Origin: a virus
IMG/VR virus record: IMGVR_UViG_3300009151_000513
Coordinates: 1-20,412 of that record
Length of the DNA stretch: 20,412 bases
Direction: 5' to 3' (one strand)
Position 1 is the stretch's first letter, and every line of letters starts with the position of its first letter. Shown here piece by piece: positions 5,829 through 13,521 of the stretch. The notes below the pieces were generated by a model that worked only from the letters and a program-made list of their open reading frames with translations, had not been told where the DNA came from and did not search any database. The translations under genes and the position numbers were made by a program.

Positions 5829-6404
5829 ATGGCAAATGTAAACAATCCCTTTGGGCTTCGGCCCCTTGGTAACTTGTCTGCTACTGGTGGCCAGAAGCAG
5901 TATGGTTATGTAATTGACGACAACCAATCGGGTGCAATTTACCAAGGTGACTTGGTAACACTGATTGGCGGTTATCTTGTTAAATTCGCACCCGGTTCAT
6001 ATAACACTTCTGTTGGGGTGTTTAACGGTTGCTTCTATAACGACCCAACCACACAGAAACCTACTTGGAAAAACTACTATCCGGGCAGCATCAATATCAC
6101 TACCGGCACAATTGTTGCCGAAGTGTTGGATGATCCGAACCAGTTGTATATTATCCAAGCAAGCGCTTCACTAGCACAGACCGATATGGGTAACAACGCA
6201 GACATTTCCGGTTCTACCGGTAGCACTGTGAACGGCATTTCCTATATGGTACTGGACACCACAACTAAGGCTACTACCGCAGCACTTAATCTTAAAATGG
6301 TCGGCATATACGATGTTCCAAGCAATACGTTTGGAAGTTACGTACAAGTCGTCGTTAAGATTAACGAACACCGCTATGGCAGTCCCGGCGTTGCAAGTAC
6401 CTAA
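5829..6404 (+). CDS. Probable capsid accessory (decoration-type) protein
   Basis: 191 residues, beta-rich and without membrane segments. It starts MANVNNPFGLRPLGNLSATG and ends with VVKINEHRYGSPGV. Both ends match a family I recall directly upstream of the major capsid gene in environmental tailed phages. Central features are a strand-rich GDLVTLIGGYLVKFAPGS and YIIQASASLAQTDMGNNADI. The position next to the capsid gene and the high expression signal (TTTAAAGGA, 5813-5821, seven bases before ATG) fit an abundant virion protein such as a capsid decoration or cement protein, but this is inference. Virion proteomics would settle it. Confidence 0.75.
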   Translation: MANVNNPFGLRPLGNLSATGGQKQYGYVIDDNQSGAIYQGDLVTLIGGYLVKFAPGSYNTSVGVFNGCFYNDPTTQKPTWKNYYPGSINITTGTIVAEVLDDPNQLYIIQASASLAQTDMGNNADISGSTGSTVNGISYMVLDTTTKATTAALNLKMVGIYDVPSNTFGSYVQVVVKINEHRYGSPGVAST

Positions 6405-6428
6405 TATTAATTCTAAAGGAGCCTACCC

Positions 6429-7334
6429 ATGGCAATTTCACGCGCACAACTAGTAAAAGAACTTGAACCGGGCCTTAATGCTTTGTTTGGTCTTGAATAC
6501 AAGACCTATCAAAATGAACACGCTGAGATTTACGAAATTGAATCTTCTGAGCGTGCATTTGAAGAAGAAGTAATGCTGTCTGGTTTTGGTGAAGCCCCTG
6601 TTAAAAACGAAGGCGCAGGCGTCGCTTACGATAATGCACAGGAAACCTACACCTCCCGTTACACCCACGAGACTATCGCACTGGCCTTCTCCCTGACTGA
6701 AGAAGCCGTGGAAGATAACCTGTACGACCGTCTTGCTGCTCGTTACACCAAAGCCTTGGCTCGTTCCATGGCTACTACCAAACAGGTAAAAGGTGCTGCC
6801 GTTCTTAACGGCGCATTTACTACCTCAGTTGGTGGTGACGGTGTTGTACTGTGCTCACTGAGCCATCCTACGCTGTCTGTTAACGTGGCTAACACGTTGG
6901 CTACTGCTGCGGATCTTAGCGAAACCTCGCTGGAACAAGCCCTGATCGACATTGCTGCGTTCACTGATGAACGTGGCCTGAAGGTCGCTGTTCAAGGTCT
7001 GAAACTGGTAGTTCCAAAAGAACTGCAGTTCACTTCTGATCGCATCTTGAAGTCTACTCTGCGTACTTCTACTGCAGATAACGACATCAATGCCATCAAG
7101 AACATGGGTCTGGTACCAGAAGGTTACACTGTTAACCATTACCTGACTGACCCAGATGCTTGGTTCGTTCTGACCGATGCGCCTAACGGCATGAAAATGT
7201 TTGAACGCGTAGCTATCAAAACTGGCTTTGAAGGTGACTTCGATACCGGCAACGTTAGGTACAAAGCGAGAGAGCGATATTCGTTTGGCTATAGTGATTT
7301 CCGTGGCATTTTCGGTTCGCCCGGTACTCCGTAA
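6429..7334 (+). CDS. Major capsid protein (Mu gpT-like)
   Basis: 301 residues, with the pattern of the Mu gpT-like HK97-fold capsid proteins of environmental phages. N-terminal MAISRAQLVKELEPGLNALF is followed by the SRYTHETIALAFSLTEEAVEDNLYDR helix region (about 75-100), a segment around LKLVVPKELQFTSDRIL (about 195-211), and the typical end KARERYSFGYSDFRGIFGS. There is no obvious N-terminal pro-region, so a separate scaffold fits. Codon use is more regular than in the neighbours (frequent CGT, CTG, AAC, GGT), as expected for the most expressed gene. AAAGGAG (6415-6421) is a strong ribosome site. The strong terminator immediately after the gene would help define an abundant transcript ending here. 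Confidence 0.9.
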   Translation: MAISRAQLVKELEPGLNALFGLEYKTYQNEHAEIYEIESSERAFEEEVMLSGFGEAPVKNEGAGVAYDNAQETYTSRYTHETIALAFSLTEEAVEDNLYDRLAARYTKALARSMATTKQVKGAAVLNGAFTTSVGGDGVVLCSLSHPTLSVNVANTLATAADLSETSLEQALIDIAAFTDERGLKVAVQGLKLVVPKELQFTSDRILKSTLRTSTADNDINAIKNMGLVPEGYTVNHYLTDPDAWFVLTDAPNGMKMFERVAIKTGFEGDFDTGNVRYKARERYSFGYSDFRGIFGSPGTP

Positions 7335-7358
7335 GTCATTGTGTTATAAGTACTATTT

Positions 7359-7388
7359 GAAAGGGGCTTCGGCCCCTTTCTTTTGTTT
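7359..7388 (+). terminator. Strong intrinsic terminator after the capsid gene
   Basis: A perfect 9-bp stem (7359-7367 with 7372-7380) is closed by a TTCG tetraloop on a C-G pair, the extra-stable cUUCGg type. TTTTGTTT follows at 7381-7388. It lies 25 bases after the capsid stop. Downstream genes would be reached by read-through or by a new promoter. Confidence 0.95.
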
Positions 7389-7392
7389 AAAA

Positions 7393-7432
7393 TATGGCAT
7401 ATGCTAGTTCCAAAGGACTAGTTCATGCCATA
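7393..7432 (+). promoter_or_regulatory. Hairpin enclosing the ribosome site and start of the homing endonuclease
   Basis: TATGGCAT (7393-7400) pairs perfectly with ATGCCATA (7425-7432), which contains the start codon ATG 7425-7427. An inner stem pairs CTAGT (7404-7408) with ACTAG (7417-7421), and CC (7410-7411) with GG (7415-7416), around an AAA loop. The SD sequence AAAGGA (7412-7417) sits in that loop and stem. About 15-16 pairs are possible, counting a G-T wobble at 7403/7422. On a read-through transcript both initiation signals would be masked. The structure is seen in the sequence; its regulatory function is inferred. Confidence 0.75.
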
Positions 7433-8015
7433 CGCCGTTGACCATATTGGTATCTATAAGCTTCGTAACACGGTTACGGGCACTTGTTATGTGGGCCAAT
7501 CTCAGCGGGTTAAGAAGCGTATTCGTGAGCATTTCCGACTACTAAACCTTGAAAAACACCCGAACCCTAAACTGCAGAATTCCTATCTAAAGTATGGCCC
7601 AACGGCCTTTGACTGGAGTCTGGAAGTAGAATGTGCGGATACAGATGATCTAGACCTTATTGAAAATGCTTTCATCTCAAAAGACGCATGGTTTGATGAG
7701 CCTGTATTCTTCAATATTGCGGATTTTGCTAAGGCACCAATGCGGGGCAGGACGCATGGCCCCGAGTCTCGAAAAAGGATTTCGGAAGGCCGTCGAAAAA
7801 CGACCTTTAATTATCAGAGTGAAGAGTACTGCAGTAAGCTAAAAGTTATTAGCACTGGCCGTCACTTCGCTAACCCAGAATTCATTGCAAAAGTTAAGTT
7901 TATAGTAGAAAATTCTGACATGTCGTATGCCGAACGCGGACGTGTCATAGGTACGAACACAAGTAACGTTCGGAAGCTAGCACTCAAATATAATCATTTA
8001 CGAGGAGAACTCTAA
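7425..8015 (+). CDS. Free-standing GIY-YIG homing endonuclease with NUMOD3
   Basis: 196 residues. The GIY-YIG nuclease domain (about 6-98) has GIY at 9-11 and YVG at 22-24. R32, H45 and E80 fall at the same spacings as R27, H40 and E75 of I-TevI, and an Asn near 97 follows, so the active site looks intact. A NUMOD3-type DNA-binding motif is at about 107-121 (RGRTHGPESRKRISEG). A helix-turn-helix-like C-terminus follows (about 150-190). Such enzymes cut an intron-less or insert-less allele and spread by repair. This one lies between the capsid terminator and the next structural gene. Its stop overlaps the next start (TAATG), and its final codons contain that gene's GAGGAG ribosome site. Its start is buried in a hairpin. 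Confidence 0.92.
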   Translation: MPYAVDHIGIYKLRNTVTGTCYVGQSQRVKKRIREHFRLLNLEKHPNPKLQNSYLKYGPTAFDWSLEVECADTDDLDLIENAFISKDAWFDEPVFFNIADFAKAPMRGRTHGPESRKRISEGRRKTTFNYQSEEYCSKLKVISTGRHFANPEFIAKVKFIVENSDMSYAERGRVIGTNTSNVRKLALKYNHLRGEL

Positions 8016-8617
8016 TGGCAGCTACACACTTTTCTGGTCCCGTAGTATCCGACAATGGCTTCAGCTCAGGTACTTCTTCCGATCCAGTTGTAATAACAAC
8101 CGCAGGTAACGAAACTAGTTACTACGGTACAACCTCCGCCACTACAGGCGACACGCGTTTAATTTATGCCAAACTGACCTTTACCTCCACCGGTTCGGGT
8201 GAAACGATTCGTTCGTTCTCGGTTGTAACTGCAGCCAACGCGGCTACCGGTGGCACAATCAACGGTTCGCATATCTCCTTGGAAGTTAACGGCTCGGGCA
8301 GCATTTCGGGTGCGGGCAACGCGTTGCGCGCTACTTTGGGCGGCACTCAAACTACTCAGACCGGCACCTTAGGTGTTATCCAGTTGGATACTAACTACAC
8401 CGGCAGCGTAACTACTCCCTCAAACTCGGCTTTTATTCGCGTAACTGACAGCGGCTCGGCTACCGGCAAGATCAACAACCTGATGAGTATCGGTGCTGGC
8501 CCAACGGCTACTCTGGTTTCTACAGGTGCAGCAACCCCCGGCGGCACGATCAAGAAGATCAAGATCGACATCAGCGGCGTAACTTACTACGTATTGGCCG
8601 CTACAACTTGGTCCTAA
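8015..8617 (+). CDS. Beta-rich virion protein, unknown function
   Basis: 200 residues, Ser/Thr/Gly-rich, with no charged clusters or membrane segments; predicted almost entirely beta-strand. The N-terminus AATHFSGPVVSDNGF matches a start (HF-GPVVS-NGF) that I recall from proteins just downstream of capsid genes in environmental phages. The composition resembles decoration proteins or fibre-like surface proteins. GAGGAG (8002-8007), inside the endonuclease gene, serves as its ribosome site, and ATG 8015 overlaps the endonuclease stop by one base. In a phage lacking the endonuclease this gene would probably follow the capsid terminator directly. The virion role is inferred. Confidence 0.78.
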   Translation: MAATHFSGPVVSDNGFSSGTSSDPVVITTAGNETSYYGTTSATTGDTRLIYAKLTFTSTGSGETIRSFSVVTAANAATGGTINGSHISLEVNGSGSISGAGNALRATLGGTQTTQTGTLGVIQLDTNYTGSVTTPSNSAFIRVTDSGSATGKINNLMSIGAGPTATLVSTGAATPGGTIKKIKIDISGVTYYVLAATTWS

Positions 8618-8618
8618 T

Positions 8619-8792
8619 ATGCAAATAACTAAAGAGTTTCTGGAAGCAGAGATTCGTGACCTTGAGCAAGAAGTACAGAAAGCCAATGCTTTTGTACTTC
8701 AGGCTCAGTCTGCAATTACCGTTTACAAGATGTTAATTGGTAAACTGGACACACCGGAACCGGAGAAAGACAATGTCAACACTGATGCTTAA
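8619..8792 (+). CDS. Small coiled-coil phage protein
   Basis: 57 residues, starting MQITKEFLEAEIRDLEQEV. It begins one base after the previous stop and ends inside the next gene, overlapping it by 20 bases in another frame. The protein is one long amphipathic helix (about 4-43) with heptad-like Leu/Ile/Val spacing, then an acidic Pro-containing tail (DTPEPEKDN). No strong ribosome site is present, so translation by re-initiation after the previous gene is likely. I recall near-identical small proteins at this place in environmental phages. Function is unknown. Coding is supported by tight spacing, composition and remembered conservation. Confidence 0.75.
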   Translation: MQITKEFLEAEIRDLEQEVQKANAFVLQAQSAITVYKMLIGKLDTPEPEKDNVNTDA

Positions 8793-9090
8793 TGCGGCAA
8801 CCGCCACTGGCCCGGGTCCTGCATTTGAAATTCGCGGTACAAACCAACTTTATGCCAATAGAAGTTTTCAGGCTGTTGGCATCATGTCTTCCTCGACAGG
8901 TACTGCTAGCGTGGCTATTGAAGTCAGCAACGATGGGATCAATTACATAACCCTTGGGACAATTACCCTATCGCTCACTACTTCGGCTAGCTCAGATGCT
9001 TTTTACGTCCAAACGGTATATGAGTACTATCGTGCGAATGTAACGCAGATTACGACCAATGGCACTGTTTCCGTTTATATGAAGGCATAA
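8773..9090 (+). CDS. Small beta-rich virion-type protein
   Basis: 105 residues from ATG 8773 (MSTLMLNAATATGPGPAFEIRG). An upstream TTG at 8737 would extend the frame, but GGAG (8762-8765) sits seven bases before ATG 8773 and the extension has no plausible content. The protein is a Thr/Ser-rich all-beta chain with GTASVAIEVSNDGINYITLGTITLS, a pattern seen in small jelly-roll or immunoglobulin-like phage proteins. The conserved-looking end is YEYYRANVTQ...GTVSVYMKA. It belongs to the run of short beta proteins between capsid and adaptors. Decoration or tail-surface function is possible but not shown by the sequence. Confidence 0.75.
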   Translation: MSTLMLNAATATGPGPAFEIRGTNQLYANRSFQAVGIMSSSTGTASVAIEVSNDGINYITLGTITLSLTTSASSDAFYVQTVYEYYRANVTQITTNGTVSVYMKA

Positions 9091-9876: not shown

Positions 9877-10089
9877 ATGGCCGGACGTGGAATGGGTGCT
9901 GCTACTAGAGGTGGCGGAGCAGTAATGCAGGGTACTCCAAATAAAGTATTGAGTAGCCCTTTGAAAAAATCAAAAGCACCGACGATGGATAAAGGTAGCG
10001 ATGCCATTAACCAGCATAAGCGCATGGCTATGGGCGAAAAAGTCATGGCTAAAGGCGGCGCAGTTAAGAAAATGACTAAAGGCCGCTAA
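9877..10089 (+). CDS. Small Gly/Lys-rich protein with KGG tail
   Basis: 70 residues from ATG 9877, which has GAGGTGAT at 9864-9871. A GTG at 9868 in the same frame lies within that ribosome site and is rejected. The sequence is low in complexity: GRGMGAATRGGGAVMQG at the N-terminus, a Lys-rich middle, and MAKGGAVKKMTKGR at the very end. The last part is the same kind of Gly-Gly/Val motif as in the 3386-3658 protein and the 5'-truncated protein. It is basic, probably disordered, with no membrane segment. Its stop overlaps the adaptor start (TAATG). Function is unknown. Confidence 0.72.
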   Translation: MAGRGMGAATRGGGAVMQGTPNKVLSSPLKKSKAPTMDKGSDAINQHKRMAMGEKVMAKGGAVKKMTKGR

Positions 10090-12522: not shown

Positions 12523-13521
12523 GTGACCACCTATACCAAAGGCTGGGGGCAAGGTGGCTGGGGCATTAACGGCTTTGGTGGGATAGCTCCTGCCTATGCG
12601 GTAACTGGAGTATCCGGGACTGGCGCGGTTGGTACGGTAAAACTTGTAATAGCTAAAGCAGTTACTGGAGTATCTGGAACTGGCGCGGTTGGTACTGTAA
12701 CGACCAAAGTTGTAAAGGTAGTAGTAGTTACTGGAGTATCTGGAACTGGCGCAGTTGGTACAGTAAAACTCGTAGCGATTAAGGCTGTTACCGGGGTTGC
12801 TGGCACGGGTGCCATAGGTACAGTAAAACTTGTAGCGATTAAAGCTGTTACAGGGGTTGCTGGTACGGGTGCCATAGGTACAGTAAAACTCGTAGCGATT
12901 AAAGCTATTACGGGAGTCGCAGGTACAGGTGCGATAGGTACCATAGCCGTAAAAGTAAGTGATGGGTTGGTCGTTACGGGAGTCGCAGGTACAGGTGCGA
13001 TAGGTACGGTAAAACTTGTAGCAATTAAAGCTGTTACAGGGGTTGCAGGAACCGGCGCGGTTGGTACAGTAAGACCCACGGTAATTAGAGCTGTTACGGG
13101 GGTCGCAGGTACAGGTGCGATAGGTACCATAGCCGTAAAAGTAAGTGATGGGTTGGTTGTTACTGGAGTTACGGGAACCGGCGCGGTTGGTACAATAAAA
13201 CCCGTAGTAACCAAGGCAGTCACTGGGGTTGTAGGGACTGGCGCGATAGGTACCGTAACTGCCAAAGTTGTAAAATTGGTGATAGTCACTGGGGTATCAG
13301 GTACCGGAACAGTTGGTACAGTCTCCTTACGATTTAATAAGACCATTGTTGCCGTTGGAGTATCCGGGACAGGCGCAGTAGGAACGGTTAGAATCATTGG
13401 GTGGACTACAATTAACGACGGCCAGACCCCGAATTGGACAAATATAAACGACGCTCAGACTCCGGGTTGGGCGGATATAACCGATGCTCAGACCCCGAAC
13501 TGGGTTGACATAGCAGCTTGA
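12523..13521 (+). CDS. Repeat-built fibre-like virion protein (13 Gly/Val repeats)
   Basis: 332 residues. The GTG start follows AAGGAT (12512-12517). A short Gly/Trp-rich head (GWGQGGWGINGFGG, 7-20) precedes 13 units of VTGVxGTGAVGTV (about 26-293). Linkers alternate between a 20-residue unit (KLVAIKA type) and a 23-residue unit (KVSDGLV or KVVKVVV type). The C-terminus (294-332) is a second repeat of 11 residues, W--I-DAQTPN, in three and a half copies. Regular Gly and Val placement suggests a beta-solenoid or strand-rich stalk. Similar Gly/Trp heads and VTGV...GTVTV repeats are familiar from marine phage tail proteins. Tail or fibre function is inferred. Repeat copies are also near-identical as DNA, so copy number could change by recombination. 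Confidence 0.8.
   Translation: MTTYTKGWGQGGWGINGFGGIAPAYAVTGVSGTGAVGTVKLVIAKAVTGVSGTGAVGTVTTKVVKVVVVTGVSGTGAVGTVKLVAIKAVTGVAGTGAIGTVKLVAIKAVTGVAGTGAIGTVKLVAIKAITGVAGTGAIGTIAVKVSDGLVVTGVAGTGAIGTVKLVAIKAVTGVAGTGAVGTVRPTVIRAVTGVAGTGAIGTIAVKVSDGLVVTGVTGTGAVGTIKPVVTKAVTGVVGTGAIGTVTAKVVKLVIVTGVSGTGTVGTVSLRFNKTIVAVGVSGTGAVGTVRIIGWTTINDGQTPNWTNINDAQTPGWADITDAQTPNWVDIAA
12598..13401 (+). repeat. Tandem coding repeats, 60 and 69 bp units, 13 copies
   Basis: Thirteen copies of a unit encoding VTGVxGTG(A/T)(V/I)GT lie in one frame. Units with the KLVAIK linker are 60 bp and those with KVSDGLV are 69 bp. A block spanning the KVSDGLV unit at about 12906-12970 recurs almost exactly at about 13092-13155. 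The low base divergence points to recent duplication or ongoing exchange between copies. Confidence 0.85.
13402..13518 (+). repeat. 33-bp coding repeats, about 3.5 copies
   Basis: Successive 11-residue units (WTTINDGQTPN, WTNINDAQTPG, WADITDAQTPN, then WVDIAA) are encoded by 33-bp units with visible base similarity (AACGACG/CGATGCTCAGACCCCG). They cap the preceding Gly/Val repeat array. Confidence 0.8.

Follow-up and report, generated by a model that had tools for sequence, protein, structure and literature searches.

A conserved hairpin over the start of a GIY-YIG homing endonuclease gene behind a phage capsid gene is a probable translational lock

Results

The endonuclease gene and its neighbors

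The window, the whole stretch of DNA analyzed here, is a 20.4-kb virus record. Phage DSL-LC04 and Pelagibacter phage HTVC023P are the isolates closest to it in capsid DNA. A 56.5-kb record (L003) contains an identical endonuclease with near-identical neighboring genes. The features of the locus are collected in Table 1. The hairpin under study begins just past the capsid terminator, where the original prediction had placed it, and the gene behind it is indeed a homing endonuclease. The protein matches GIY-YIG in Pfam (3.1e-6, above the cut-off) and homing endonuclease in PHROG (1.1e-19). A profile built from 29 homologues hit 1mk0 (6e-11) and 1ln0, both structures of the I-TevI catalytic domain. 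Because the catalytic positions G9, Y11, Y22, G24, R32, H36, E80 and N97 are invariant in the 29 homologues, the endonuclease looks undecayed. It is an I-TevI-like GIY-YIG homing enzyme by these matches, with cutting and self-copying as its predicted activities.

Table 1. Features at the capsid-endonuclease site of the window, with the locations of the leader RNA found in endonuclease-free relatives
Feature	Position	Strand	Evidence or remark
Major capsid protein gene	6429..7334	+	Pfam Phage_capsid_4 6.6e-14; PHROG 371 major head protein 5e-22
Intrinsic terminator behind capsid gene	7359..7380	+	9-bp stem, TTCG loop, T-rich tail
Outer left arm TATGGCAT	7393-7400	+	Pairs with ATGCCATA at 7425-7432
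Inner left arm GCTAGTTC	7403-7410	+	Pairs with 7415-7422; homologue consensus AC.AC
Loop CAAA	7411-7414	+	Fold
Shine-Dalgarno (SD) AAAGGA	7412-7417	+	Sequence; 7 nt spacing to ATG
Inner right arm GGACTAGT	7415-7422	+	Pairs with GCTAGTTC; homologue consensus GT.GT
Outer right arm ATGCCATA	7425-7432	+	ATG, codon 2, first two bases of codon 3
Free-standing GIY-YIG homing endonuclease, 196 aa	7425..8015	+	Pfam, PHROG and structure-profile matches
SD GAGGAG of next gene	8002-8007	+	Inside endonuclease gene
Next gene, in cement gene's place	8015..8617	+	Start overlaps endonuclease stop (TAATG)
Leader RNA in relatives	L094:3990-4110; L089:4460-4590; L096:4980-5095; L507:2465-2550 (DSL-LC04); L508:2500-2592 (HTVC023P)		

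The next gene stands where a cement protein is annotated in DSL-LC04, and the window protein is not alignable with the DSL-LC04 one. A TATAAT at 7989-7994, inside the endonuclease gene, was considered as a promoter for this gene and rejected, as it has no good -35. The first ~20 codons of the gene (MAxTHFSGPV.., 8015-8075, and the first 60 bases of the gene in L012, L013 and L018) are conserved and the remainder differs between loci; the conserved 5' end may represent a co-conversion tract or the target of the endonuclease. Farther along the window, the gene at 12523-13521 contains tandem VTGVxGTGAxGTV-type repeats and probably encodes a repetitive structural or fiber protein.

Scans of viral contigs yielded 75 distinct endonuclease leaders from uncultivated phages. 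The endonuclease lies ~80-190 nt behind the capsid gene in 75 of 81 representative loci, at capsid identities down to 40%. The two genes are ~0.9-1.5 kb apart in L019, L026, L031 and L046, where the inverted repeat is still present, and in two of the 81 loci the contig ends too early to place the capsid gene. A start codon overlapping the endonuclease stop recurs in 57 distinct loci. Relatives with up to 90% identical capsids have no endonuclease at the site or have another one there. No relative of the endonuclease was confirmed in GTDB genomes, and isolated phages contained nothing but distant endonucleases (<60% identity). The capsid-cement site is a repeated target: relatives have genes of at least two more GIY-YIG families there (L084:4906-5882, L086:4909-5950, L321-L332 and L361-L367). 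These further genes are often preceded by a TTGACA-N17-TATAnT-like promoter.

A predicted hairpin closes the endonuclease start

RNA folding of 7380-7450 gave a hairpin at 7393-7432 with a minimum free energy (MFE) of -20.1 kcal/mol and z = -3.29; none of 200 dinucleotide shuffles was equally stable. The hairpin has 16 bp arranged as two 8-bp stems with a 2x2 internal loop and a CAAA terminal loop, and it still forms in a 145-nt context, with the capsid terminator folded alongside. The coordinates and the pairing of TATGGCAT with ATGCCATA in the outer stem and of GCTAGTTC with GGACTAGT in the inner stem are those of the original prediction. In the predicted fold the ATG is paired in the outer right arm, and the SD straddles the loop and the inner stem, with half of it in each.

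The unpaired probability of each gene start was averaged over -12 to +5. The endonuclease start has the lowest value of the 25 gene starts in the window (0.25 versus 0.36-0.74). It also has the highest opening cost at 15.3 kcal/mol, followed by 15.0 kcal/mol for the gene at 10089 and at most 9.3 kcal/mol for the remaining genes. In these models the SD and/or start codon is closed by a stable stem formed with the upstream leader. Rfam searches of the window and its relatives in gathering and E-value modes returned no family matching the hairpin.

The inverted repeat is conserved in homologous leaders

Leaders were compared ungapped. The 75 leaders share a register of TGGC at -30 to -27, AC.AC at -22 to -18, GG at -10/-9 and GT.GT at -7 to -3, followed by ATGCCATA, which gives the consensus TGGCAT.AC.AC ... 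GG.GT.GT..ATGCCATA. The left-arm T, G, G and C are conserved in 71, 71, 68 and 62 of the 75 leaders, respectively. Where a pair is conserved both of its members are, and the intervening columns are much less conserved; columns 10/31 are both low, and 16/25 are low but less so. Outer runs of ≥4, ≥5 and ≥6 pairs are present in 70, 63 and 58 leaders, respectively. Many homologues have a poor inner stem. In register 75% of the cells are paired, and sliding the arms by 1-3 columns lowers this to 46% or less. Conservation of the inverted repeat is certain.

Opening the SD and start costs a median of 10.7 kcal/mol across the 75 leaders, and the leader MFE is on average 2.5 standard deviations below versions with a shuffled left part. 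At the homologous loci, endonuclease starts are less accessible than the starts of the next gene (MWU p 2e-8), with mean MFEs of -14.2 and -6.7, respectively. The original prediction had named homologues that have the SD and lack the pairing as its counterexample. About 5 of the 75 leaders are of this kind, and several of these close the SD or start otherwise. In L219, TGGCA is displaced upstream and still pairs with the start region, with an ACCCTTT/AAAGGG pairing added over the SD; in L186 and L212 the start or SD is closed by different stems.

Phage RNA stems elsewhere are RNase III sites or decay barriers, and the structure might likewise be a processing or stability element without effect on initiation, or simply a chance fold. 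A z of -3.3, the most closed of 25 starts and a position relative to the ATG that is fixed in 70 of 75 leaders make this explanation very improbable.

Sequence conservation exceeds compensatory change in the arms

Compensatory changes in homologous leaders, which had been proposed as a check on the hairpin, are weak. Leaders with swapped partners pair nearly as well as the real ones (11.36 versus 11.53 of 16 pairs), and 75.1% of cells are paired versus 74.2% in shuffles. The covariation score of 0.160 compares with 0.141 in shuffled alignments and was reached in 13 of 500 shuffles. Against a tree-based null, pair 15-26 alone among 17 pairs fell below 0.01; it is G-C in the window's clade and C-G in most other leaders. 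Among the window and its nearest relatives both sides of the inner stem do change: pair 11-30 is G.U in the window, A-U in L164 and C-G in L190. RNAalifold predicted no consensus pairs from 52 leaders, probably a result of mismatches that individual leaders have at many of the inner pairs. The right outer arm is unable to vary or covary because it encodes the invariant MPY, and the three leaders with an altered Pro codon have no compensating change in the left arm. The arms are thus kept mostly by conservation of their sequence.

Symmetry that is kept by sequence and not by covariation would also be expected of a DNA palindrome that serves as an operator, for example in autorepression by the endonuclease or by another dimeric protein. 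There is precedent in the known autorepression by I-TevI of its own late promoter (PMC2988022). Several observations argue against an operator. Of the inferred left-arm changes, 9 of 15 at position 2, 9 of 11 at position 6 and 9 of 16 at position 7 left a G.U pair; G.U is tolerated by RNA and not by a symmetric DNA site, but transitions are common anyway. The exceptional leaders close the SD by other pairings, and to our knowledge the sites of homing endonucleases are usually not palindromic. An operator is accordingly a poor candidate, and an RNA lock is the likeliest reason for the conserved inverted repeat.

The left arm resembles a promoter element

Endonuclease-free relatives have a promoter-like TGGnnTATATT at a similar distance from the terminator. 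The left arm might be kept mainly as the -10 element of a promoter inherited from such a site, with the pairing secondary or a later refinement. Transcription would then begin near hairpin position 20, immediately ahead of the SD, giving RNAs without the hairpin. Scored with a weight matrix built from 25 endonuclease-free promoters, 29 of the 75 leaders have their best match exactly at hairpin position 8, which also has the highest mean score of all positions, and TGG at -5 to -3 is common to the endonuclease leaders and the endonuclease-free promoters. The -10 hexamer would read TATGCT in the window, however, and a motif scan of the same phage's 56.5-kb record did not place the site among its top hits. 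No sigma-70 promoter was detected at the site in a scan of 6300-8800; the scan gave a single weak match, at another position, and shuffled sequences gave more. A promoter also leaves three conserved features unexplained: the CA at positions 6-7, which is the complement of the start codon UG and is mostly T/G in the relatives' promoters; the C at position 12; and the GT.GT between the SD and the ATG. We consider it unlikely that promoter function is the main reason for the conservation of the left arm.

An RNA starting at -13 would have a mean opening cost of 6.4 versus 10.7 kcal/mol, and 2.9 versus 15.3 kcal/mol in the window. When the endonuclease-free promoter motif was scanned in two genomes, the capsid-cement site alone stood out, in one of them, and the motif is therefore not a genome-wide phage promoter at that stringency. 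One clade (L179, L198, L213, L231 and relatives) has TTGACA directly before TGGCAT, with TAAGGT or TATGGT 17 nt on. As read from the sequence, the -10 element would then coincide with the SD and transcription would begin at the ATG, giving a leaderless mRNA.

A double-pseudoknot leader RNA occupies the endonuclease-free site

In endonuclease-free relatives, the gene next after the capsid gene (annotated as a cement protein in DSL-LC04) is preceded by a strongly covarying leader of ~100 nt. The leader RNA is made of three interlocked helices, H1, H2 and H3, in a double pseudoknot, with the SD right after H3 and the fixed letters CTGAC..AGAC..AGA. H1 is CCGGG/CCCGG or CTAG/CTAG, and H3 is ACATGC/GCATGT, GTTGTAG/CTACAAC or CATACAA/TTGTATG. 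H2 is mostly 9-10 bp and exists in 54 distinct, compensating versions. At all nine positions, 48-55 of 55 distinct H2 arms are paired, with at least four standard pair types at positions 4-8, and partner swapping shortens the mean length from 9.4 to 6.5. The same RNA was recognized by eye in DSL-LC04 and HTVC023P. No Rfam family matched it in gathering or E-value modes across the window and relatives. The leader is probably an undescribed cis-regulatory RNA of HTVC023P-related phages.

The leader RNA and its promoter are absent from this site in the window (7380-8015). L084 has another endonuclease at the site and retains both elements downstream of it. It is conceivable, although doubtful, that the endonuclease of the window replaced the promoter and double-pseudoknot leader of a cement-type gene, which would now be expressed via the locked leader and the TAATG overlap. 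In that case the hairpin would control both the endonuclease level and the capsid-to-cement ratio, and the parasite would be hard to lose.

Discussion

The hairpin is a real element and probably functional, and we estimate a probability of about two in three that it acts as a translational lock on the start of a mobile endonuclease gene. Polymerase reading through the capsid terminator would produce an mRNA whose leader folds onto the endonuclease start. With its SD and start codon closed, little endonuclease would be made from the abundant late capsid transcript, and ribosomes could still start the next virion gene via the SD located in the 3' end of the endonuclease gene. Such a lock may be beneficial by reducing toxicity or by limiting interference with the virion genes. 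The putative lock appears to travel with the endonuclease and is kept across highly diverged phages. A left-arm promoter in part of the family may be an addition that supplies a shorter, unlocked mRNA, as for I-TevI.

Another type of GIY-YIG gene, from other phages (L333-L352; L334:1432-1495, L340 and L347), has a long leader stem flush with its GTG or ATG start. Leader stems of the L334/L347 type have z values of -7.5 and -7.2 and, on the basis of these folds, are likely another lock. Start closure is mixed and weaker in the GIY-YIG genes of L321-L332 and L359-L367, some of which lie at the capsid-cement site.

Structures that close the SD are described for I-TevI, I-TevII, I-TevIII, SegB and Aeh1 MobE in a review of T4 mobile DNA (PMC2988022). 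The initial suggestion that hairpin control of a free-standing enzyme would be new was wrong, because SegB and Aeh1 MobE are free-standing and have such hairpins (PMC2988022, citing Gibb and Edgell 2007, 2009). T4 I-TevI belongs to the same catalytic domain family as the window enzyme (profile match 1mk0). As in the window, the I-TevI, I-TevII and I-TevIII genes have an SD ~7-8 nt before the AUG that is closed by a stem with the upstream leader, and each is embedded downstream of a host gene, whose read-through RNA includes the endonuclease. Unlike the window gene, they are intron-borne and have a mapped late (or middle) promoter that gives unlocked RNA; the window yielded no convincing internal promoter.

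T4 segB and mobE of Aeromonas phage Aeh1 share with the window a free-standing gene, an SD-closing hairpin and the same arrangement. They differ in location: segB lies among tRNA genes and mobE, of the HNH type, in a ribonucleotide reductase gene, whereas the window gene is flanked by the capsid gene on one side and the next virion gene on the other. We know of no hairpin sequence common to segB or mobE and the window. The T4 segD gene, between genes 23 and 24, is also a GIY-YIG endonuclease gene that adjoins the major capsid gene, but it has the opposed orientation and no hairpin lock is described for it. A stable leader hairpin is predicted for seg43 of Aeromonas phage 25, but its stem leaves the SD open (PMC2988022). 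We found no earlier description of such a hairpin in the present phage group, at the site behind the capsid gene or with this breadth of conservation.

A translational lock at this site would extend an idea derived from T4 to uncultivated phages that are distantly related to the abundant HTVC023P group. It would be represented by ~70 diverged leaders instead of a handful. The case also suggests that the lock moves with the gene. These leaders would form a natural series of variants for measuring how much silencing a selfish gene needs behind a highly expressed phage gene.
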